A stretch of DNA of 44,246 bases from an uncultured Candidatus Marinamargulisbacteria bacterium (GTDB lineage Bacteria; Margulisbacteria; Riflemargulisbacteria; GWF2-35-9), in assembly GCA_903910705.1 (NCBI GenBank), contig CAIWAN010000082.1, positions 1 through 44,246 of the forward strand, given 5' to 3'. Position numbers and translations under genes: made by a program. Below the pieces are notes generated by a model. The model saw nothing but the letters and a program-made list of their open reading frames with translations, ran no database searches and had not been told where the DNA came from. Position 1 is the first letter of the stretch; every line of letters begins with the position of its first letter. Of this stretch, positions 32,885 to 44,246 are shown one piece after another.

Positions 32885-32960
32885 GGGGCTGTAGCGCAGT
32901 TGGTAGCGCATTTGCATGGCATGCAAAGGGTCAGGGGTTCGATTCCCCTCAGCTCCACCA
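32885..32960 (+). tRNA. tRNA-Ala (anticodon GGC)
   Basis: A complete 76-nt cloverleaf: acceptor stem GGGGCTG/CAGCTCC, D-arm GCGC/GCGC with AGTTGGTA loop, anticodon stem TTTGC/GCAAA with loop ATGGCAT giving anticodon GGC, and T-arm AGGGG/CCCCT with TTCGATT. The CCA end is encoded. It reads Ala codons GCC and GCT. A T-rich stretch after CCGCTC/GAGCGG (32966-32971, 33000-33005) may end the transcript. It borders the serine recombinase, suggesting the site where a mobile island joins the chromosome. Confidence 0.97.
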
Positions 32961-33023: not shown

Positions 33024-34571
33024 TTATTTTTCGTTCGGAATGTCGAACACCTCTTTTCTTGGAACATCATGAAACCGAATATGAAGCTTGTCTTTTTCGC
33101 AGTCGATCCGGTCGATGATTTTGCTTAGCCGGATGCGATGCGTTGAGATGTCGGCAAACGGGTAATCCGCACGATATTCGATGAATCGCTTCTTGATCTC
33201 GGCAATATTGATCAAGTCTTCGCGGGTCTGACTGACGGTGATCTGTTGCTTGGTGATCGTTGTCTTGATTGTTTTCTCTTCGGTTTCCAGTTCGGACAGT
33301 TTTTCTCGGATCAATTCCCGCTCTTTGCTCAGGAACTGATTAGTCAGCAAGCTGTCGAGATACGTGTCCTTCTTTGTTTTTAGCTGACTTCGCATGCTTT
33401 CGAGGTGCTGAAGGGTTTGGGCTTGCTCAGCCATTCGCTCGCTGATCTTTTCATTGTGTTTGAGCAGTTGGTTTTCAATCGAGGCGAAGGCCTTTTCTTC
33501 TGACAGGGTTAGCAATATGTCGGTCACTTGCGGGTCGAGTTGTGAAACGCTGAAATGGTGGTTGTGACATTTTCTTTCACGCTGCTTGGAGCCGGTACAT
33601 CGATAATAGAGATACTTTTTCTTGTTGCGATTGATGGTGTGACTGGGAGCTAACGGGGAGCCACAGGAGCCACAATATACCTTCTTGGCTAACAAGATAT
33701 CGCTCGTGTAGGTGTTCTTGGTATAGGCTTTTTGCCGGATGATTTCCTGAACCTTCTCAAACGTGGCAAGGCTAATAATGGACTGATGGACGCCTTCGTA
33801 GCGTTTGCCGCTCCACGTCATCTTGCCGATGTAGGCTTCCTGTTGGAGCATTTTCAGGATTTGTCGAATATCCCATTGTTTCCCGTCCCGATACTTGTAG
33901 CCGTTCTCGGTGAGATATTTGGCCACTTCATGGGTGGAGCGGGTTTCAAGGAACTTGGCAAAGATGATCTCAACGATCTGTTTTTCCTTGGGATACGGAA
34001 CAAGTTCTTTCTCGACAATGGAATACCCGAAGAGTCGCCGGCCACCATTGAAAAGCCCTTGGCTTGCTCGATGTCCCATAACGTCCGCGATCCGCTCCGA
34101 GGTTTGTTCGCGTTCGAGCTGAGCAAAGACCAGAGCCACGCGAAGCATGGCTTTGCCCATCGCGGTTGTGGTATCAAAGTTTTCTTTGATGCTGATGAAT
34201 TCGACGTCGTTTTCGTTCATCAAATTCATGAGGTTTTCGAAATCAAGTAGGGATCGACTGAGTCGATCCAATTTCTTGACCACCACAGCATTAATTTTGC
34301 GTTTCTGAATGTCTTTGACAAGCTTTTGATATTCGGGACGGTTGGTGTTGCCACCGGACTTTCCCCGTTCGATATAGATTTGGTGAATGCTGAACTGCCG
34401 GAAGTCGCAATACTTCTTGAGTTCGGTTTCTTGTTCTTCGAGCGAATCGCCCTCGTTGGCTTGGCGTTCGGTTGAGACACGGATATAGAGGGCGACACGG
34501 AACCCCTCCGCCTTCGGCACCTCCCCTGAATGAGGGGAGGCTTTTTTCGTTTTGGTAAGAGAGGCTTTCAT
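33024..34571 (-). CDS. Large serine site-specific recombinase
   Basis: This 515-residue enzyme has a resolvase/invertase catalytic domain: ALYIRVSTERQANEGDSLEE with nucleophile Ser33, VVVKKLDRLSRS, and FAQLEREQTSERIADVMGHR. A 'recombinase' DNA-binding domain follows (about 180-300), then a zinc ribbon with VYCGSCGSPLAPSHTI and RCTGSKQRERKCHNHHF, and a C-terminal coiled coil. This is the architecture of phage and ICE integrases and Tn5397/TnpX-type enzymes. The N-terminal extension (ASPHSGEVPKAEGF) is encoded by a palindromic repeat. AAAGGA before ATG 34571 supports that start. Confidence 0.94.
   Translation of the reverse strand: MKASLTKTKKASPHSGEVPKAEGFRVALYIRVSTERQANEGDSLEEQETELKKYCDFRQFSIHQIYIERGKSGGNTNRPEYQKLVKDIQKRKINAVVVKKLDRLSRSLLDFENLMNLMNENDVEFISIKENFDTTTAMGKAMLRVALVFAQLEREQTSERIADVMGHRASQGLFNGGRRLFGYSIVEKELVPYPKEKQIVEIIFAKFLETRSTHEVAKYLTENGYKYRDGKQWDIRQILKMLQQEAYIGKMTWSGKRYEGVHQSIISLATFEKVQEIIRQKAYTKNTYTSDILLAKKVYCGSCGSPLAPSHTINRNKKKYLYYRCTGSKQRERKCHNHHFSVSQLDPQVTDILLTLSEEKAFASIENQLLKHNEKISERMAEQAQTLQHLESMRSQLKTKKDTYLDSLLTNQFLSKERELIREKLSELETEEKTIKTTITKQQITVSQTREDLINIAEIKKRFIEYRADYPFADISTHRIRLSKIIDRIDCEKDKLHIRFHDVPRKEVFDIPNEK
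34502..34549 (+). repeat. Palindromic repeat inside the recombinase 5' end
   Basis: CCTCCCCT (34520-34527) pairs with AGGGGAGG (34533-34540) over 8 bp with loop GAATG, followed by CTTTTTT. Just before it is ACCCCTCCGCCTTCGGCA with a small GCC-TTC-GGC hairpin. The 'CCTCCGCCTTCGGCACCTCCCC' type of sequence looks like a dispersed intergenic palindromic element. Here it is read in frame as residues about 11-24 of the recombinase. Confidence 0.5.
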
Positions 34572-34701
34572 ACTAGTTCCTTTCTGAACGGTTGGTTGTT
34601 GCCAGCAACAGGACGTTGCTGGCGTGGGATCGGGGGCGTGATTGGGCTTTGTTCCGGCATCGCCATCGTGGCTCCGGCGTCATGAACAGCGGTTGAACGT
34701 C
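34572..34701. other. Intergenic stretch with a 9-bp hairpin
   Basis: The stretch holds a perfect inverted repeat GCCAGCAAC/GTTGCTGGC (34601-34609 and 34615-34623, 5-nt loop). It lies between the SLOG-like gene and the recombinase it precedes. No T-tract follows in either direction, so it may be a recombinase binding site or an operator rather than a terminator. Confidence 0.35.
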
Positions 34702-35319
34702 TCATTTTAAATACAGTGCTTTATAGGCACCGTCCCAACAGCCGCCGCAGATAAGGGGCTTCCACTTGATATTGGGGAACTCGGGCAACGGGCGATCGAT
34801 GCAAAAGATGACCACCGGCAAATGGGCGCCCAAGGCCTTGCGTAGCGTAAACAATGTCCCGCGACTCTCGCCAAAGAGAAACGCGACAATACCCGTGACG
34901 GCATCGATAAGCCGCATATTGCGTTGAAGCAACGCCGTCCGCACGACGCTGTATTCTTCTTGACCGCGAACCGTGCCCCAAATGATCGACCCGCCAAAAT
35001 CCTTGAACTGACGTGTCAGCGAACGCACCTTGACGGGGAAACCCTCATACGTGCTCCACGGGCTGTATAACGTGCCACGGGCACTCTCGCCGATATGGAC
35101 GAGATGCGACAAAACAAACTCATCCGTGCCCACCGCACCGCCACTGGCGATCTGGCATCCCCGACCGAGTAGATCCTCGGTGACGGTGCCGACCCGCTCT
35201 GCCCACTCAAGCGGGAGCGAGCGGGAACCAATAACACCGATAAACTTTTGCGTCACGGACGACGCCACTGCCACACACGCACTGCTTTTTGCTCGTAGTG
35301 AGCCTGCCGAACTATTCAT
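34702..35319 (-). CDS. DprA/SLOG-like nucleotide-binding protein
   Basis: The 205-residue protein has a Rossmann-like core of the DprA/LOG (SLOG) type: KFIGVIGSRSLPLEWAERVG, then LLGRGCQIASGGAVGTDEFV (residues 26-70) with the GG-x-x-G-T-D loop, and later VTGIVAFLFGESRGTLFTLR. DprA proteins load RecA on incoming ssDNA; other SLOG proteins bind nucleotide-derived ligands. No DprA C-terminal winged helix is present. AAAGGGTG precedes ATG 35319. The gene is clearly richer in GC than the defence operon next to it. Genes of this type often accompany recombinases on mobile elements. Confidence 0.75.
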   Translation of the reverse strand: MNSSAGSLRAKSSACVAVASSVTQKFIGVIGSRSLPLEWAERVGTVTEDLLGRGCQIASGGAVGTDEFVLSHLVHIGESARGTLYSPWSTYEGFPVKVRSLTRQFKDFGGSIIWGTVRGQEEYSVVRTALLQRNMRLIDAVTGIVAFLFGESRGTLFTLRKALGAHLPVVIFCIDRPLPEFPNIKWKPLICGGCWDGAYKALYLK

Positions 35320-35333
35320 AATGCACCCTTTCT

Positions 35334-35360
35334 GGATAGGCCTTCCGGCCTATCCCTTTT
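35334..35360 (+). terminator. Stem-loop with short T-tract between divergent genes
   Basis: GGATAGGCC (35334-35342) pairs with GGCCTATCC (35347-35355) over 9 bp, loop TTCC, followed by CTTTT. It has terminator form on the plus strand but there is no plus-strand gene just before it. On the minus strand it lies in the leader of the SLOG-like gene, just upstream of its ribosome binding site, so it may have a regulatory role there. Confidence 0.4.
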
Positions 35361-35483
35361 GTGAAATATGAAGCGACACACCAGAAAAACCGAGAGCCTG
35401 TCTAGCGAGAAAACATGTATTTTTTTGAATATGCGCGACAATTAACAGTCGTATACTAATTTAGTTTACTCGTTGTCGAGCCA

Positions 35484-35512
35484 TTGCATAAATGGGCGCA
35501 TGTAAATATACT
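35484..35512 (+). promoter_or_regulatory. Promoter of the CARF-regulator defence operon (predicted leaderless)
   Basis: TTGCAT (35484-35489) and TATACT (35507-35512) are spaced by 17 bp. ATG 35521 is 8 nt after the -10 box, without a Shine-Dalgarno sequence. This is the only promoter-like element seen before the five-gene run. Confidence 0.45.
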
Positions 35513-35520
35513 ATCTATTG

Positions 35521-36120
35521 ATGACAAAAGTCTTATTATCCACGATCTATAACTGCTATTCTATTATTGCCTCGGCAAATCGTTTCTCTGTTGACCGAAT
35601 TATTCTCCTAGTTGATAAACGGCCTGATGACATAATGAAGGAAAGCATCAAACTGATCGAAGCATCCCTTGGTTCTGTCCTTAAAGTTGAGAAAGTTTCT
35701 ACTGAGATTTATGACATTGTGGGGATTGCGAAGCAACTTGTGGATTTGATTGATAGTATTCCCGAAAAAGACGAAATTATTGTGGATGTTACTTCGGGGC
35801 GCAAACCAAAGTCATTGGCGCTGTTATTCGCCGCTTATGCCAGATCAAAGCATATTAAAAAAATTGTCTATGTTACGGAGGATACGAAGCAAATTATTAC
35901 CCTTCCCAAAATGGCCTATACTTTGAATACTACTCAGACACATTGTTTAGAAATCATCAAAGCATCGAAGGCCGTTACGAATGTTCAGATTGCACAAAAG
36001 CTTGGCTATACCAAGGCAATCATTTATCGAAATACGAGAGAACTCCTCGAGATTGATGCGATTGAAAAGGTCGGGGAAGAACTTAGATTGACGGATTTTG
36101 GGGAAATTTTGCTGCTATGA
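35521..36120 (+). CDS. Csa3-like CARF-wHTH transcription regulator
   Basis: The 199-residue protein has the layout of Csa3-type regulators. An N-terminal CARF (Rossmann-like) domain begins MTKVLLSTIYNCYSI and carries the ligand-loop motif VDVTSGRKPKSLAL (89-102), equivalent to the 'TGG-x-K' loop that binds cyclic oligoadenylates. A C-terminal winged helix follows at about 138-199 (QTHCLEIIKASKAVTNVQIA, then LGYTKAIIYRNTRELLEIDA and TDFGEILLL). In CRISPR systems such proteins sense second messengers or regulate cas genes. Here no cas gene or array is visible; it stands first in a defence-like operon, 22 nt before the Mrr gene. TTG 35518 is in frame, but ATG 35521 is the natural start. Confidence 0.75.
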   Translation: MTKVLLSTIYNCYSIIASANRFSVDRIILLVDKRPDDIMKESIKLIEASLGSVLKVEKVSTEIYDIVGIAKQLVDLIDSIPEKDEIIVDVTSGRKPKSLALLFAAYARSKHIKKIVYVTEDTKQIITLPKMAYTLNTTQTHCLEIIKASKAVTNVQIAQKLGYTKAIIYRNTRELLEIDAIEKVGEELRLTDFGEILLL

Positions 36121-36142
36121 AAATGTTGAAAGGATAAAATAA

Positions 36143-37051
36143 ATGTCGATACCAGATTTCCAAGCTATCATGCTACCTCTTCTAAAGTATGCTTCAGATG
36201 AAAATGAACATACATTAAGAGATGCGATATCAAGCCTATCAATAATTTTCAAATTAAATGAAGAGGAGAAAAAAGAGCTTCTCCCTTCAGGTGTTCAGCG
36301 TATATTTGATAACCGTGTTGGCTGGGCTAGAACATATCTGGGTAAGGCTGGGCTCTTTGAGAATACAAGACGAGGCTATTTTGTCATTACAACAAGAGGC
36401 AAAACAGTTCTTTCTGAAAAGAATGAACGATTGTCGGTAGCATACCTCAATAAATTTGATGAGTTTCTAGCTTTTAGGACAGGTCATAAAAGTAAACAAA
36501 CGAATGATGTAATTGAACTTCTTTCAGTTGAAAGCAATCCAGAAGAACTACTTGAAAACTCATATAAACAACTTAGAGATGAACTGGCCACCGAATTATT
36601 AACTCAAGTAAAAGCAAACACTCCCGACTTTTTCGAAAAACTAGTTGTCGATGTCCTAATTGCTATGGGATATGGTGGATCGAGGCAAGAAGCAGGAAAA
36701 GCAATTGGCAAATCAGGCGATGAAGGCATAGACGGAATCATTAATGAGGACAGACTTGGGCTGGACACCATTTACATTCAAGCAAAAAGATGGGAAAACC
36801 CAGTAGGACGCCCAGAGATTCAAAAGTTTGTCGGTGCGCTCCAAGGAAAAAGAGCCAAGAAAGGTGTTTTTATAACGACATCTTCTTTCTCAAAAGAGGC
36901 GCACGACTATGTAAGAAATATAGACAACAAAGTAGTTCTGATTGATGGGGAGCAACTAGCACAATATATGATTGACTTTAATGTAGGAGCGTCCAAAATC
37001 GCTACTTATGAAGTGAAGAGAATTGATTCCGACTATTTTGAGGAAGGTTAA
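36143..37051 (+). CDS. Mrr-family type IV restriction endonuclease
   Basis: Mrr enzymes cut modified foreign DNA. The N-terminal ~100 residues form the Mrr_N winged helix (LPLLKYASDENEHTLRDAIS, GWARTYLGKAGLFENTRRGY). The C-terminal Mrr_cat PD-(D/E)XK domain starts near FFEKLVVDVLIAMGYGG (Glu165) and continues SGDEGIDGIINEDRLGLDTI with Asp197, then YIQAKRWENPVGRPEIQKFV with Gln213 and Lys215, and ends VLIDGEQLAQYMIDF. All catalytic positions are in place. Length 302 is usual. AAAGGAT precedes the ATG. Codon use is AT-rich like the two genes after it. Confidence 0.93.
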   Translation: MSIPDFQAIMLPLLKYASDENEHTLRDAISSLSIIFKLNEEEKKELLPSGVQRIFDNRVGWARTYLGKAGLFENTRRGYFVITTRGKTVLSEKNERLSVAYLNKFDEFLAFRTGHKSKQTNDVIELLSVESNPEELLENSYKQLRDELATELLTQVKANTPDFFEKLVVDVLIAMGYGGSRQEAGKAIGKSGDEGIDGIINEDRLGLDTIYIQAKRWENPVGRPEIQKFVGALQGKRAKKGVFITTSSFSKEAHDYVRNIDNKVVLIDGEQLAQYMIDFNVGASKIATYEVKRIDSDYFEEG

Positions 37052-37117: not shown

Positions 37118-40100
37118 ATGACTTTGACTGAAGATTTAACTAAACACATCATAGAGAAGCTCTCAAACTGGAAAGGTAAGCTCATTGATCTAACTCGCAG
37201 AAATAATCTTCTGAATTTCCGGCCATTAAAAAGATATAGTCTTAGAATAGTTGACGAAATTCCTTCGGAAATTTTCAAACAGCTTGTTATTGACGGTGAT
37301 AAATTTCGATTTAAAGCTGTCCCCAAAAAGGCTATTAAATTGTCTGCAGAGGATTCAGATGCTTCCGAAATGGAAATATCTAATGATATTGATGGGGAGG
37401 AGTTTAATGTTAATCTTAATGATACCGTCTTTTCCGAATATGACAGAGATAGTCTAGACACAAAACACAAAGACTTATTCTTACAAACCAATCTATTAGA
37501 GGATGATCTCGAACGAAACTTAAAATATATAAGCAGAGAAGCTAAGCAAGTTATGGAAGAGCAAGGCTATAACGTGCTATTTCTTGCATTGGGTATTTTA
37601 AGGTGGTACGAATCGCCTGATTCAGATATTCCTTACAACTCACCAATTCTCATGGTTCCTGTTGAGATTATCAAGAAAAAGAGGAAAACAGAAGATGGAG
37701 GAAGTCAGAAAAATATAGCAAATGATTATGAGCTTAAAATTACCGATGAAGATGTTTTTGTGAACCTAGCACTAATTTTAAAATTAAAAATTGATTTTGG
37801 TCTTGAACTTGACGAAATCCCTGAAGATTTATCAACTTTTAATCCAATAGCTTATTACAAAAACCTGCAATCACTGATTATAAAAAAAGATCGATGGAAG
37901 GTTCTAAATACTGTTTATCTTGGTTTATTTTCATTTGCTAAATTTACAATGTATAAGGACATGGATAAATTTCAAAGCCTTTATTTGTCTAACAAAATAA
38001 TACAAGGTTTAGTTCAGCGGCATGTTTCAATTAATAAAGAAATTCAGGAAACTCCTGCTAACGAGTTAGATATTAGAACAACGCCTCATATGACATATCA
38101 GGTGCTTGATGCAGATTCATCACAACAGGAAGTCATAGAAGTGGTTAAAGCTGGATGTAGTTTAGTCATTCAGGGGCCACCGGGCACAGGTAAATCACAA
38201 ACAATTACTAACATTATTTCAGAGGCATTAGCACAAAACAAAACCATTCTTTTTGTCAGCGAAAAAATGGCTGCCCTTGACGTGGTGTACAGCCGACTTA
38301 AAGACGTTGGACTTGGTGACTATTGTTTAGAGGTTCACAGCCACAAGTCAGGTAAGTTGCACGTATTGGGACAAATCCAATCGGCCTTTGAATCTCAAGA
38401 CCCAGGAAATCCTCGAATGCCAGATACCATTAATTCCCTTTGTGAAATACGAGAACAACTCAATAGGTATCCAAAGGAATTACATGAACCGCATATGCCA
38501 TTAGATAAATCAGTATTTTGGGGTTTGGGAAAACTAGCATCACTGTCACAAACAGAATTGCTTTTATCGTACAGCTTTGAGAGGCATATTCAGATTTCTT
38601 CTACTGATTTAGATCGCAAAATTATGTTATTAAGCGAGCTTCAAGAGCGGGTAAACATTTTAGGGAATCCGAATGCCCATCCTTTTAAAGCCAGTGATTT
38701 AAGATATATTGACGTTTTATTAAAAGATAAGATCGAAAATAGCCTTAAATCTACGGCAAATCACTTACAGATTTCAGCTAATTTAGCGGATATTTTAAGC
38801 AAGGAAATAAATCAACCGGTAACATCTTTTAGTGATGCAATAAAATTGCATCAGATTATTCATCACCTTTCAACAAATCATTGTTTATCAAAAGAACTAT
38901 TCTTTAATGCCGATGACGAATTTTTTAATCAAGACTTTTCACAAATAGGTAGTTTCTTGGAGCTATTATCCGAAAAAACAAAATCTTTTCAATCTCAATA
39001 TCCAGATTTAGTTAACACTCAAATGATATCTAATCTGGAATCAGTTATCGATGAAGATACGTTTAAAAGACAAGCATTAGCTCTATCCCAACAAATTAAC
39101 TATATTCAAAATGCAAAAGCAGAACTGTCTAATGCTTTATTGCGTGAGTTCCCAAGTGAGACTAGCTTTGAATCGTTATTCGCAGCGATTATGACAGTTA
39201 ACGATAAAGAGGATTTTCGCAAAAAAATTCAAGTGCTTATCGAAAACATTTATGAATATTCAAAATGCTTAATGTCAGTTCAGAGTAGATATGATGCTTC
39301 AATATTTCAGGAAAATATTGAAGAAATTCTTTCATCACTAAAGCTAAAGTATGGCAGCTTAATAAGTAGATTTTCTTTCTCATATTTTGGTTTACTGAAG
39401 ATAATAAAAAAACATCTCAATAAAAAAGAAAAAACAACTTACGCAAGCATCATTTCAGACATTGAAACTGCCATAAGAACAAAGAATCTTTTGGAATCAA
39501 TTAATAAAACACCCTACATAATCTATACCCCATTAGGAATTTTATGGAAAAATGAAAAAACAAATATTCGTCTTGTTGATCAAGTTGTAAATGAGCTTTT
39601 TGATCTAGCAACAAGAACCCAACAAGTTGATAGTTATGCCCCAACCTTTATAAGTACGATTAAGGAAATTTGGTTTGGGGTAGACTCAAACAGCGAAAAA
39701 TTAATTGATGTACCTACTCAAGTATTTGAGATTAAATCCATTAAGACAGCAATTGATGAATTCGAAAAAAAGAATACTAAATACCTTGGCAATTTATGGC
39801 AAGGATATAAAACAGATTTGCCCTACATGCTATCTCAGATCAATTGGTTGAAAGAATATTGCGTTATCGCAAAAAATTGGGTTCCAAGTGATGTCGTTCT
39901 AGAATTTATTCTTGATTCAAACAAGATACCTAATCAACTGAGTAGTGATGTTTCAAAACTCCATACTGAATATGATGAGTTTATTAAAGGATTCCATGAT
40001 TTAGTTGATCAACTTAATATTAATATTGACGATTTGTTTGATTCTAATATTTTGGACTCACAGTTTGCATTTCTCTTTGCTTTGATTAGTTCTTGGTTTG

Positions 40101-42511
40101 ACAATCTATCCCTATTATCGGATTGGATTTCGTACAAAAAATCATATGAAAGATGCAAAAATGAGGAGCTTCAGGAATATATTGATTCCTTAATCGTATC
40201 CGATAGTCTGACCAACATCTCAAAAATATTTGAAAAAGGTGTGGTTTACTACTGGATTAGAAATATTCTACACGAAAAGCCTTCTCTACGTGAATTCGAG
40301 TCAATTTCACACGAAAAGCTTATTAGTGCCTTTAGAGAAATCGATACGCATCAAATTGATTTAGCTAAGGCACGATTGAAATACCTTCTATACAAAAACA
40401 AACCTGATACTAATTGGGAAGGAAGCAACACTTCCGAACTCGGATTTCTACAACGACAATTTAGATTAAAAAAGAGACACGCATCATTGAGAAGGATATT
40501 TTCAACTGCACCAAAGTATATTCAAAGCCTTACTCCTTGTTTTTTAATGAGTCCGTTATCTTTATCCCAATTTATCGACCCATCAATACTGCATTTTGAT
40601 ATAGTGATATTTGATGAAGCAAGCCAAATTAGCCCAGAAGATAGCTTGTGCGCATTAGTTCGTGGGGATCAGTTGGTTGTTGCTGGAGATAGCAATCAAA
40701 TGCCGCCATCGAATTATTTTAAATCTTCGTTAGGTGAAGATACGAATGAGGATGATGAGATAGAATATGAGGCTGGTGATTTAGAGAGCATACTTGATGA
40801 GCTGCTTTCTATCGGATTTAAGCAATCAACTTTAAGATGGCACTATCGCAGCAAAGATGAAACCCTAATTAATTTTTCAAATTATCACTTTTATAAAAAT
40901 CACTTAATTACATTCCCCAATTCATTTAGAGACGAAAGCTTAGGGATTCATATGAGATATATTCAAAATGGTGTCTATGACAGAGGCAAGAGCAAAACAA
41001 ATTTAAATGAAGCACGTGAAGTCGTGAAAGAAATTGTTAAGCACTATAAAACCAACTCTAGTAAGTCTTTAGGTGTCGCAGCTTTTAGCCAGAGTCAACA
41101 AAGATTAATTATGGATTTATTAGATGAGGAGTTGCGAGACAACCCAAAATATGAAGAGTGGTTTAACAAAGGTGAGGAAAAACTTTTTATTAAAAATTTA
41201 GAAACAATTCAAGGTGATGAGAGAGATGTAATCCTTATTAGCATTGGGTTCGGAAAAGATCATAACGGGAAGTTTAGCCTTCAATTTGGCCCTCTTAGTA
41301 GGGATGGCGGAGAGAGAAGGTTAAATGTTTTGATTACTCGGGCACGTTATAAGTTAGTCTTATTTTCTTCGGTACGAGCTGATGAATTTGACTTAACAAA
41401 AACGAATAGACTGGGCGTTACATTGCTCAAAAAATATCTAGAATACGCCGCGTCTGGAGACAAGTCTTTATATGATGATATTAGCTATGATCAAACAAAT
41501 ACCTTTGACGAAACGAATATTTTTGAAAAAAGTGTATATGATGATCTTTGTCAGAAAGGATATCAAGTAGTCCCTCAAGTTGGATGTTCAGGATATAAAA
41601 TTGACTTTGGAATTTTACACCCTGAAATTCCCTCAAAATTTGTTTTAGCTATCGAATGCGACGGTGCAACTTATCACTCTTCTTCTACGGCTAGAGATCG
41701 AGACAGACTTCGTCAGGCAGTATTGGAAAAACTTGGCTGGAAATTCCATCGCATTTGGTCTACTGATTGGTTCACAAATAAAGAAAGGGAGCTAAAAAAG
41801 TTAATAGCCTGTATTGATGAATCTATTAGAAATCACAACGATGAAAAACCAGTGAATATGGAGAAAGCTCCAACCATTGAAATAGCGTATTCCGCCGAAA
41901 TTGCATCATCTTCTACGGTAGAAGAAAGTTCCGCTGTAATCCCTTATAGAAGATTTGAAGTATCAAAAATAGCTAGTCAGGAGGATTTCTATGAGTTATA
42001 TCGAAATTATCCATCTTACTCAATAATAAATATTGTGTCTGAACTTATTGAACAAGTTATTGTAATTGAAGCGCCTATTCACATGAATGAATTAGCTTCT
42101 AGGGTTGCAGAATGTTTTGAGATATCGAAGGTTGGCTCTAAGGTATTAGGCGCTATAACAAAACTGGCACACTCATTGCATGTCCAAGGCAAAATATTGG
42201 TTAGAAAAAACTTTGTATATAAAGACGCACAAACGGTTAATCCTATTAGAAACCGATCAGCGGAAGGGTCGGTTATTGACCCTGATTATTTCCCTCCTGA
42301 TGAAATCGAACAAACAATCATCTTAACGCTAAATAAAGAGTTTTCAATAAATCAAGATGATCTAATTCAGAAGTCATCAAGACTTTTTGGGTTTCAGAGA
42401 TGTGGACCCAAATTATATAAAACAGTTGAGAAGGCAATAAATGGATTAGCTGAAGATAAGAATATATTCATCGAAAACGGTGTTTGTAGATTATGCTCAA
42501 CCTATTCTTGA
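37118..42511 (+). CDS. DUF4011-SF1 helicase-PD-(D/E)XK-DUF3320 defence protein (Hhe-like)
   Basis: This 1797-residue protein begins with a DUF4011 domain (WKGKLIDLTRRNNLLNFRPL). A superfamily 1 (COG1112/UPF1-like) helicase follows, with Walker A GPPGTGKS at 353-360 and Walker B IFDEASQISPED (Asp1166-Glu1167). Later motifs are LVVAGDSNQMPPSNYF, LRWHYRSKDE, IQGDERDVILISIGF and RRLNVLITRARYK. A helical insertion of about 600 residues separates the two motor halves. Residues about 1476-1570 are a Vsr/MTES_1575-like PD-(D/E)XK nuclease (YKIDFGILHP, FVLAIECDGATYHSS). The C-terminus has two winged-helix-like units of DUF3320 type. The domain order matches what I recall of the single-protein Hhe antiviral system. 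It is strongly AT-rich. Confidence 0.9.
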   Translation: MTLTEDLTKHIIEKLSNWKGKLIDLTRRNNLLNFRPLKRYSLRIVDEIPSEIFKQLVIDGDKFRFKAVPKKAIKLSAEDSDASEMEISNDIDGEEFNVNLNDTVFSEYDRDSLDTKHKDLFLQTNLLEDDLERNLKYISREAKQVMEEQGYNVLFLALGILRWYESPDSDIPYNSPILMVPVEIIKKKRKTEDGGSQKNIANDYELKITDEDVFVNLALILKLKIDFGLELDEIPEDLSTFNPIAYYKNLQSLIIKKDRWKVLNTVYLGLFSFAKFTMYKDMDKFQSLYLSNKIIQGLVQRHVSINKEIQETPANELDIRTTPHMTYQVLDADSSQQEVIEVVKAGCSLVIQGPPGTGKSQTITNIISEALAQNKTILFVSEKMAALDVVYSRLKDVGLGDYCLEVHSHKSGKLHVLGQIQSAFESQDPGNPRMPDTINSLCEIREQLNRYPKELHEPHMPLDKSVFWGLGKLASLSQTELLLSYSFERHIQISSTDLDRKIMLLSELQERVNILGNPNAHPFKASDLRYIDVLLKDKIENSLKSTANHLQISANLADILSKEINQPVTSFSDAIKLHQIIHHLSTNHCLSKELFFNADDEFFNQDFSQIGSFLELLSEKTKSFQSQYPDLVNTQMISNLESVIDEDTFKRQALALSQQINYIQNAKAELSNALLREFPSETSFESLFAAIMTVNDKEDFRKKIQVLIENIYEYSKCLMSVQSRYDASIFQENIEEILSSLKLKYGSLISRFSFSYFGLLKIIKKHLNKKEKTTYASIISDIETAIRTKNLLESINKTPYIIYTPLGILWKNEKTNIRLVDQVVNELFDLATRTQQVDSYAPTFISTIKEIWFGVDSNSEKLIDVPTQVFEIKSIKTAIDEFEKKNTKYLGNLWQGYKTDLPYMLSQINWLKEYCVIAKNWVPSDVVLEFILDSNKIPNQLSSDVSKLHTEYDEFIKGFHDLVDQLNINIDDLFDSNILDSQFAFLFALISSWFDNLSLLSDWISYKKSYERCKNEELQEYIDSLIVSDSLTNISKIFEKGVVYYWIRNILHEKPSLREFESISHEKLISAFREIDTHQIDLAKARLKYLLYKNKPDTNWEGSNTSELGFLQRQFRLKKRHASLRRIFSTAPKYIQSLTPCFLMSPLSLSQFIDPSILHFDIVIFDEASQISPEDSLCALVRGDQLVVAGDSNQMPPSNYFKSSLGEDTNEDDEIEYEAGDLESILDELLSIGFKQSTLRWHYRSKDETLINFSNYHFYKNHLITFPNSFRDESLGIHMRYIQNGVYDRGKSKTNLNEAREVVKEIVKHYKTNSSKSLGVAAFSQSQQRLIMDLLDEELRDNPKYEEWFNKGEEKLFIKNLETIQGDERDVILISIGFGKDHNGKFSLQFGPLSRDGGERRLNVLITRARYKLVLFSSVRADEFDLTKTNRLGVTLLKKYLEYAASGDKSLYDDISYDQTNTFDETNIFEKSVYDDLCQKGYQVVPQVGCSGYKIDFGILHPEIPSKFVLAIECDGATYHSSSTARDRDRLRQAVLEKLGWKFHRIWSTDWFTNKERELKKLIACIDESIRNHNDEKPVNMEKAPTIEIAYSAEIASSSTVEESSAVIPYRRFEVSKIASQEDFYELYRNYPSYSIINIVSELIEQVIVIEAPIHMNELASRVAECFEISKVGSKVLGAITKLAHSLHVQGKILVRKNFVYKDAQTVNPIRNRSAEGSVIDPDYFPPDEIEQTIILTLNKEFSINQDDLIQKSSRLFGFQRCGPKLYKTVEKAINGLAEDKNIFIENGVCRLCSTYS

Positions 42512-42529: not shown

Positions 42530-43510
42530 ATGGTGATACAAACAATCCAAGAGCTTGAAAATTCCATACGTAAATGCATAAACAACCCACGCAAGCAATA
42601 TATTCTGCTTCAGAATCACGCAACTTGGAATCAACTTTGTAGTAGCCTCGATATTATTGGTGATACAGATTACGCCCTGTCATCCTATATAAAAGACTCT
42701 GGACCTTCTGATATTGGAATGAATTACATATACATTTATGGGTTCCTTCAAGCTTTAATTCTTCAACAAGATGCTATTCGGTATTGTGCAAATGCTCTTG
42801 GTATTGTGGACGAGTTAGGAAGGAAATATAAAGGAAACCCCACATTGGAAATGGTAAGACAAATCCGTAATCGAAGTTCTGGTCATCCAATGAACTGTGA
42901 TCGGGACGCAGAAGGAGGGTCATACAATTTTATATCCCAAATTTCTATGAGCAAGTGGGGTTTTACTCTGCATTCCAGTAGACCAGAAAAGCGAACAACT
43001 GTCGAAGAGATTGATTTGCAGCGTTTATTGAAAGAACAAACAGAAATTACAACCGAAGCGTTGATCATTATTTTAGACAAGTTAACGGAGGAAGACATGA
43101 AACACAAAAAGGCCTTTGAGGGTGAAAATTTAATAGATAATATCCCTCCAACTTTGGGTTACTATTTTGAAAAAATGTACGCCGCAACATATGAAACTAA
43201 TCCTGGCCAGAAAACCTCTGCAATGCACTTGGGTAAAGTTCATTTTGATTCAGTTATGGCGGTCGTGGAAAAGATCAAAATAGAACTTACTAAGAGAGGC
43301 CTTTATCCGGCATATTCCAGTCTTAAGAATATTTTCGATGAAATCTCCTATCCATTGGCCGAATTAGAAAAATATTTTTCATCCAATAGTGGCGCAGTTA
43401 ACGACAAAACCGCGAACATATTCATTTTCTTTATTCAGCAACAAATAAATGAAGAGCTAATGGTCATGCTAAAAGAATTAGACGAAAAATATAAAGTTCA
43501 AGGAGAATGA
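42530..43510 (+). CDS. Putative HEPN-motif protein
   Basis: I do not recognise a named family. The helical first half contains IYIYGFLQALILQQDAIRYC followed by VRQIRNRSSGHPMNCD, in which Arg113-Asn114-x4-His119 fits the R-[NHD]-x(3-5)-H active-site motif of HEPN RNases, on a helix after a long helix as in that fold. The second half (about 200-326) is also helical and may be a regulatory or partner-binding region. AAAGGAAC precedes the ATG, 18 nt after the helicase stop. HEPN RNases act as toxins or effectors in many defence systems, so this may be the operon's RNA-cutting effector; that is inference from one motif and context. Confidence 0.6.
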   Translation: MVIQTIQELENSIRKCINNPRKQYILLQNHATWNQLCSSLDIIGDTDYALSSYIKDSGPSDIGMNYIYIYGFLQALILQQDAIRYCANALGIVDELGRKYKGNPTLEMVRQIRNRSSGHPMNCDRDAEGGSYNFISQISMSKWGFTLHSSRPEKRTTVEEIDLQRLLKEQTEITTEALIIILDKLTEEDMKHKKAFEGENLIDNIPPTLGYYFEKMYAATYETNPGQKTSAMHLGKVHFDSVMAVVEKIKIELTKRGLYPAYSSLKNIFDEISYPLAELEKYFSSNSGAVNDKTANIFIFFIQQQINEELMVMLKELDEKYKVQGE

Positions 43511-43517
43511 GATCACT

Positions 43518-44246
43518 ATGACCAAACCCACGCATACCCACGAAGCAGACTTTAACAAACTGGTTAGAGTGCTGGAGCAAACTCATTTTGAGTTGCAGAA
43601 GCAAGCCGCTAGATCAGTCGACATTGCCCTCGTTGTTCGCAACTGGCTCTTTGGCTGGTATATCGTCGAGTTTGAAAACGGTGGTGGCCAGCGAGAAGAT
43701 CTTTACGGGAAAAAACTAATAAGTCGCATTTCGGATGAGCTTAAACAACGAGGCATAAAGGGGTTGTCGGAAACAAATTTGCGAAAGTGCCGAGAGTTTT
43801 ATCAAGCATATTCAGAGATTCGGCAGACACTGTCTGTTAAATCTTTTTCCAGTTCGTTGATTGAACAATTGACCTCATATTTCAAGCTCGGTTGGTCGCA
43901 TTACGTAACACTAATCACGGTTAGTAATACTGAAGAGCGTCATTTCTACGAAATCGAATCTACCCAAAACAGTTGGAGCTTTCGTGAGTTGAAACGTCAA
44001 ATCGCCGCGTCCCTTTACGAGCGGTTGTCGCTGAGCCGCAACAAAGAAGAAATACGCCAGTTAGCCACTCAAGGTCTGGTCGTGGAAAAGGTCTCCGATA
44101 TTATTAAGAACCCCTACGTGCTTGAGTTCCTGAATTTGTCGGAGCAACACGCATATTCTGAGCATGAGCTAGAAACTGAGATTATCGATAAACTTGAACA
44201 CTTTCTTTTAGAATTGGGCAAAGGATTTTTATTTGAAGCACGGCAA
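43518..44246 (+). CDS. DUF1016 (YhcG-like) PD-(D/E)XK nuclease, partial
   Basis: The frame is open from ATG 43518 to the window end (243 codons, no stop). The product matches the DUF1016 N-terminal domain: ALVVRNWLFGWYIVEFENGG, then YGKKLISRISDELKQRG, LRKCREFYQAYSEIRQTL, LGWSHYVTLITVSNTEERHF and LSRNKEEIRQLATQG. The last visible residues (LEHFLLELGKGFLFEARQ) are where the C-terminal PD-(D/E)XK nuclease domain begins. Full-length members are about 340-370 residues. Such proteins are frequent in defence islands, often with type I restriction systems. It is 7 nt after the HEPN-like gene; AAGGAG lies 13 nt before the ATG. Confidence 0.88.
   Translation, partial: MTKPTHTHEADFNKLVRVLEQTHFELQKQAARSVDIALVVRNWLFGWYIVEFENGGGQREDLYGKKLISRISDELKQRGIKGLSETNLRKCREFYQAYSEIRQTLSVKSFSSSLIEQLTSYFKLGWSHYVTLITVSNTEERHFYEIESTQNSWSFRELKRQIAASLYERLSLSRNKEEIRQLATQGLVVEKVSDIIKNPYVLEFLNLSEQHAYSEHELETEIIDKLEHFLLELGKGFLFEARQ

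Follow-up and report, generated by a model that had tools for sequence, protein, structure and literature searches.

A CARF-winged-helix regulator gene at the head of exchangeable non-CRISPR defense operons in Candidatus Marinamargulisbacteria

What is known of CARF transcription factors comes mostly from CRISPR loci; the CARF-winged-helix (CARF-wHTH) gene studied here heads a non-CRISPR defense operon. The gene lies at 35521-36120 on the forward strand of a 44,246-nt stretch of DNA (hereafter the window) that is the whole of contig C82 of G000, a 2.2-Mb genome that is 97.7% complete. Our best reading of the combined analyses is that its product would be a local switch of the BrxR/CapW kind, built on a Csa3-type CARF sensor and borne on SLOG-serine-recombinase elements next to tRNA genes.

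Family and fold of the CARF-wHTH protein

The reading frame as listed opens with a TTG at 35518; the start kept in relatives is the ATG at 35521, which yields a protein of 199 aa ending at 36120, with a CARF domain at about residues 1-130 and a wHTH domain at about residues 136-199 (numbered from this ATG). The protein contains the motif VDVTSGRKPKSLAL. By its profile match it is a member of the PADLOC CARF3 family PDLC01849 (E 3.2e-57; residues 2-199 of 200 against model positions 1-196 of 197), a family for which PADLOC lists no function or system and whose model also matches in M. jannaschii, H. volcanii and M. acetivorans. The Pfam models HFX_2341_N and CARF_Card1 scored above cut-off, and two models for Csa3 scored below theirs (Pfam Csa3_N, 20.5 bits against a cut-off of 27; NCBIfam TIGR01884, 55.3 bits against 60.2). 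No WYL domain was matched in Pfam, PADLOC or NCBIfam, and the 199 residues comprise CARF and wHTH only, with no AAA+ sigma54-activating ATPase domain.

An AF2 model made with three relatives (pLDDT 74.6, pTM 0.57) contains a Rossmann-like sheet, with strands alternating with helices, followed by a winged helix. Its top PDB matches in Foldseek were Csa3 (2wte, E 2.2e-10) and Csa3 with cA4 (6wxq, E 7.5e-10), both at a TM-score of about 0.5, a value at which the domains match those of Csa3 and their mutual arrangement is left unfixed by the model. As a profile-based PDB sequence search with the family retrieved only MarR-type wHTH chains and similar entries, the CARF call rests on the profiles and the fold. 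Between copies the gene has a dN/dS of about 0.02-0.09, indicating strong purifying selection and therefore far more than a chance reading frame. The initial annotation, made from the sequence of the window, had called the product a CARF-wHTH protein with a Csa3-like fold and proposed fold prediction as a check; the PADLOC and Pfam profiles, the CARF Rossmann-like sheet of the model and Csa3 as the best structural match all agree with that call.

The likeness to Csa3 of type I-A and type III systems (for example S. solfataricus Csa3a; PDB 2WTE, 6WXQ) extends to domain order, to fold and to loops at the cA4-binding positions that hold a conserved Gly and a basic residue. Csa3a contacts cA4 through motif 1 (T-h-G-F-N/D-E) and motif 2 (G-h-R) (PMC8699464). 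Residues T9, Y11, D90, S93, G94 and K96 (numbered from the TTG) are invariant in six homologues of our protein and fall at the places of these two cA4-holding motifs, as placed by motif rather than by structural superposition. Where Csa3 has T-h-G-F-(N/D)-E-X4-R and L-X2-G-h-R, this protein has T-I-Y-N (T-h-Y-N in motif form) and S-G-R-K, keeping the Thr, the Gly and a basic residue. Thus, of the pocket that had been proposed around residues 8-12 and 91-98, the location of the loops stands, whereas the residues within them differ from those of Csa3. Unlike Csa3, the protein scores below the curated Csa3 cut-offs, and its gene has no cas genes beside it and heads non-CRISPR defense operons; the cas genes of G000 occur only on a contig other than those bearing CARF genes, which places the gene outside the CRISPR-cas locus that defines a csa3 gene. 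Given the scores below cut-off and the differing motifs, we rejected a canonical Csa3 assignment.

Six loci with one regulator and different cargo

The CARF gene is the first gene of a same-strand defense operon. It is followed on the plus strand by a gene for an Mrr-type type IV restriction endonuclease (36143-37051, from profiles; its match to the sister species extends to the stop codon), a gene for a 1797-aa DUF4011 - SF1 helicase - MTES_1575 REase protein (37118-42511; PADLOC PDC-S37) that resembles NCBIfam ProA and Hhe below the cut-offs of both, a gene for a 326-aa protein (42530-43510) with no match in Pfam, PADLOC or NCBIfam, and a gene for a YhcG/DUF1016 PDDEXK nuclease (43518-44246, from profiles) that is open at the contig end. 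The 326-aa protein is predicted to be helical, and by eye its RNRSSGH would fit the RX4-6H motif of HEPN proteins, so that it is possibly a HEPN-type RNase; its AF2 model (pLDDT 41.5) was too poor for a fold reading. The initial annotation had described an orphan regulator in a non-CRISPR immune setting without cas genes in these 44 kb. The setting is as described, with non-CRISPR defense genes directly after the CARF gene and no cas gene among the reading frames of the window. The orphan reading had to be given up, as the gene is coupled to the operon at whose head it stands and is one of three copies in the genome.

Our sample of stand-alone copies comprises six genes from three genomes of one order, all of them MAGs, and the relatives examined were MAGs of Candidatus Marinamargulisbacteria and Candidatus Termititenax. 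Three copies are in G000 (C82, C97, C11), two in a sister species (G031) and one in a more distant genome of the same order (G028). All six have a defense gene directly downstream on the same strand, and the system differs at each locus. The C82 copy precedes mrr and the ProA-like gene, and the C97 copy, which is 95% identical to it, lies directly before a DrmD-like SNF2 helicase gene. The C11 copy (56%) immediately precedes a type 1 BREX operon (BrxA, BrxB, BrxC, PglX, PglZ, BrxL). In G031, the C107 copy precedes mrr, hsdM and hsdS (Mrr and type I R-M) and the C151 copy precedes a gene for an 1800-aa SF1 helicase-REase (helicase-nuclease) protein; in G028, the C24 copy (48%) precedes genes for RhuM and a PLD helicase. 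At every locus the gap to the next gene is 0-23 nt or is replaced by a 4-nt ATGA overlap, and no cas gene was found among the neighbors of the six genes. Within the BREX operon of C11, PglX is split and a Shedu gene is inserted in it, and no WYL gene was seen.

DNA comparisons placed the boundaries of homology between these loci. Between C82 and C97, a match of 87-95% begins inside the SLOG gene described below, runs through the promoter and gives way to divergence after 36125, five bases past the CARF stop codon. The match between C82 and C151 is confined to 35452-36121, which covers operator, promoter and CARF gene, and that between C82 and C107 ends at 37051, the last base of the mrr stop codon, past which C82 has the ProA-like gene and C107 has hsdM. 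With homology ending at either the CARF or the mrr stop codon, cargo has been swapped beneath a retained promoter-regulator unit. Parts have also been exchanged between loci, since the CARF gene of C107 is nearest to the C97 copy (dS 0.19), yet its mrr matches that of C82. In view of the low dN/dS, selection preserves the CARF protein even as its cargo is replaced. From these alignments, the unit is apparently a reusable promoter-plus-regulator cassette, which agrees with the initial suggestion of a transferred regulator insofar as the unit is transferable and its copies stand before different defense systems.

The block common to C82 and C151 begins with a candidate operator, TATACTAATTTAGTTTACTCGTTGT, an imperfect inverted repeat at 35452-35476 (plus strand). 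The element reads TATACT(n)TTTAAGTwTACTCrTTGT in C82, C97 and C151, just upstream of the promoter, and its inverted repeat is imperfect in C82 and C97 and perfect in C151 (TATACT-ATTTA-AGTATA). The candidate promoter, TTGCAT-N17-TATACT at 35484-35512 (plus strand), ends 8 nt before the ATG with spacing identical in these three copies (TTGCAT-N17-TATACT-N8-ATG); its -35 matches the consensus weakly, and it did not stand out from background in a simple promoter scan. If this promoter is used, the CARF mRNA would be leaderless, and an operator upstream of the -35 would suit an activator. The C11 copy keeps TATACT and lacks the -35 and the operator, and the G028 copy keeps neither the -35 nor the operator. 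Exact matches to the operator element in G000 and G031 occur only at CARF promoters, and a dispersed regulon with a common operator was rejected for these two genomes.

SLOG-serine-recombinase elements

Divergent from the CARF gene is a gene for a SLOG (DprA-like) protein (34702-35319, minus strand; from profiles), one of eight such matching places in the genome. It adjoins a gene for a large serine recombinase (33024-34571, minus strand; from profiles), with which it forms a multi-copy module, and the recombinase gene in turn adjoins a called tRNA-Ala(ggc) gene (32885-32960, plus strand), its likely integration target. G000 has 8 SLOG and 10 recombinase matches, and relatives have more; we saw the module at 33024-35355 of the window, at L080 1-16000, at L005 1-196 and 17348-17544, and in L075, L079 and L081-L084. 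Several recombinase copies adjoin tRNA genes for Ala-ggc, His/Arg, Leu-gag and Ser-gga (window 32885-32960; L080 15208-15283; L075 11988-12188; L084 5616-5701; L012 14736-14820; L083 1815-1904), which suggests integration at tRNA genes. The SLOG leader contains a perfect 9-bp hairpin (35334-35355) just upstream of the ribosome-binding site, and its counterparts in C11 and G028 (L005 111-130; L012 13576-13598) keep the pairing with different stem sequences.

A divergent SLOG gene lies beside four of the five CARF copies whose upstream flank can be read (C82, C97 as a remnant, C11 and G028). The exception is C151, where an ftsZ-like gene, divergent and unusual in its N-terminal stretch (L011 6702-7757), occupies the usual place of SLOG. 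Other SLOG elements carry defense cargo and no CARF gene, namely type I R-M on C80 and on C3 of G028, SspBCD on C19 of G033, and an HKD-Snf2 system on C51 of G030. On C19 of G033, the Ssp cargo lies, beside a tRNA-Ala gene, between long inverted repeats (94% and 85%) made up of two recombinase-SLOG units. At its ends the BREX contig C11 has the SLOG leader as a perfect inverted repeat, whose 141-nt arm is a lower bound on length, as it may equal an assembler k-mer. Both arrangements point to a likely composite mobile defense element. As SLOG elements often lack a CARF gene, the CARF cassette is one option within a wider mobile defense family.

A probable local switch, its possible ligands and its relatives

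We consider it likely that the CARF protein is a local, ligand-gated regulator of its own gene and of the defense genes downstream, a statement that leaves ligand and sign open. It would act as a one-component transcription regulator: on binding a nucleotide-type ligand, a CARF homodimer would shift its pair of wHTH domains on an operator that immediately precedes the promoter of the CARF gene. Tied into the operon by short gaps or overlaps, the gene would set expression not only of itself but also of the genes that follow, which at C82 are mrr, the DUF4011 helicase-nuclease gene, the family-less gene and yhcG. With the promoter-CARF unit retained and the cargo exchanged, it could serve as a general switch for defense islands on SLOG-serine-recombinase elements, acting as BrxR and CapW do, except that its sensor is a CARF domain of the Csa3 type where theirs is WYL. 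Observed for this switch are the gene and its fold, its operon position at six loci, the replacement of cargo from the CARF stop codon onward and the purifying selection. Against it, the CARF gene is missing from many cargo-bearing SLOG elements, so the regulator is dispensable for such cargo.

The nature of the ligand separates several explanations. Cyclic oligoadenylate may be bound where it is available, and G000 has possible sources of nucleotide signals, as a search for a nucleotide cyclase elsewhere in the genome, proposed at the outset, turned up both a Cas10 and CD-NTases. Contig C111 holds a type III-A CRISPR locus (L032 4464-15088) with a complete Csm1/Cas10 bearing GGDD (475 bits to TIGR02578), a CARF-RelE effector, Cas6, Cas1, Cas2 and repeats, so the initial statement that CRISPR is absent holds for the reading frames of the window but was rejected for the genome. 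With this locus, Cas10 could respond to phage RNA by making cyclic oligoadenylate, a signal that the three CARF regulators could relay in trans to turn on the BREX, DrmD-type and Mrr/ProA-like islands. Csa3, the nearest solved relative, binds cA4 (PMC8699464, PMC8844856), but cA4 is reported to leave specific DNA binding by Csa3 unchanged (PMC8844856). Genome content also speaks against this alarm: G028 (99% complete) has a CARF gene and neither a Cas10 nor a SMODS match, the CARF-bearing G031 (82% complete) has no Cas10 match, and G030 and G029 have Cas10 but no CARF gene of the PDLC01849 family. The counter-case of G028 makes a strict partnership with Cas10 unlikely, and strict dependence on it is not supported. 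Overall we regard a trans-acting CRISPR alarm as unlikely, and rather more doubtful is its fullest form, in which cyclic oligoadenylate sent out by the type III-A complex would reach several paralogous CARF regulators as an alarm across the whole genome and induce the three unrelated innate systems; if true, adaptive immunity would control innate immunity by transcription.

Another nucleotide ligand is a tentative possibility of some substance, be it a CD-NTase product, a piece of RNA that carries a 2',3'-cyclic phosphate terminus or a metabolite linked to the divergent SLOG protein. Contig C71 of G000 encodes two SMODS CD-NTases (L033 1619-4988), but no CD-NTase match was found in the CARF-bearing relatives. 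RNA ending in a 2',3'-cyclic phosphate has been proposed as the ligand of RtcR-like CARF regulators of CoCoNuT operons, and RtcR-type CARF genes head non-CRISPR defense superoperons (PMC11090510). The divergent SLOG gene at most readable copies would fit a linked metabolite, but the frequent occurrence of the SLOG-recombinase module without a CARF gene means that this link may be one of mobility alone. That same occurrence, and the intergenic region common to the CARF gene and the divergent SLOG gene, would also fit a private role for the regulator, for example autoregulation alone or control of SLOG-recombinase, with its defense neighbors reflecting insertion into defense islands. We judge this improbable, as at all six loci, despite their different cargo, the CARF gene comes first and is translationally coupled or close-set to the defense gene, and as C151, which has no adjoining SLOG gene, keeps both the promoter-CARF unit and the coupling.

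The proposed local switch has a functional parallel in the WYL regulators BrxR and CapW, which head BREX, CBASS, type IV restriction and other defense operons (PMC9122601). Common to both are the place directly upstream of, and co-directional with, varied defense systems and the layout of ligand sensor plus wHTH; the sensor here is CARF rather than WYL. The candidate inverted-repeat operator at the CARF promoter, a feature looked for by analogy with BrxR and CapW, is imperfect in C82 and C97, perfect in C151 and absent from C11 and G028. An RtcR-like CARF regulator gene likewise leads CoCoNuT superoperons from their 5' end, and these may include type I RM and BREX (PMC11090510), but RtcR is a CARF-AAA+-HTH protein that works with sigma54, whereas ours lacks the ATPase. 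CARF genes outside CRISPR, with RtcR-like ones near R-M systems, were described by Makarova et al. in 2014 (PMC4012209), and a 2026 BREX survey has CARF in its reference list only (PMC12839542). The literature searched, to which the 2020 CARF classification did not belong, described no Csa3-type CARF-wHTH protein as the repeated head of BREX, type I R-M, DrmD-like and Mrr/ProA-like operons. Here this sensor type heads at least five different non-CRISPR defense operons, and the switch would add a second sensor class beside WYL among regulators that travel with defense islands. The exchange boundary at the CARF stop codon makes it testable whether one nucleotide signal serves several unrelated anti-phage systems, with Cas10 as its source or not.

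Archaeal relatives differ in context. M. mazei MM_0565, also a CARF-wHTH protein, differs from ours in its place next to a type I-B CRISPR locus and in its global action (PMC7465815). The csa3 product of an M. hollandica plasmid (WP_015313864) is 30% identical over its full length and keeps the GRKP motif; on this plasmid, pMETHO01 (L021), the gene is divergent to helicase genes of GajB-like and DrmD-like type, and no cas gene is annotated within 10 kb of it. It was the one relative found in plasmids; none was found in viral contigs and phages, and a strict-pattern scan of genome contigs returned Margulisbacteria only.

Further features were seen around the signaling genes. The type III-A locus of C111 contains inserted Fic-like and Schlafen/AlbA-like genes, and its array of at least five repeats reaches the contig end. 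Each CD-NTase gene of C71 is followed by a gene for a membrane-like protein, and a transposase gene adjoins. On C57 of G033 (L013 13785-14966), a receiver domain is fused to CARF-wHTH in a different context, flanked to one side by genes for a sensor kinase and NRPS and to the other by one for a further receiver protein; this REC-CARF-wHTH protein is a case of a CARF domain within a two-component regulator.
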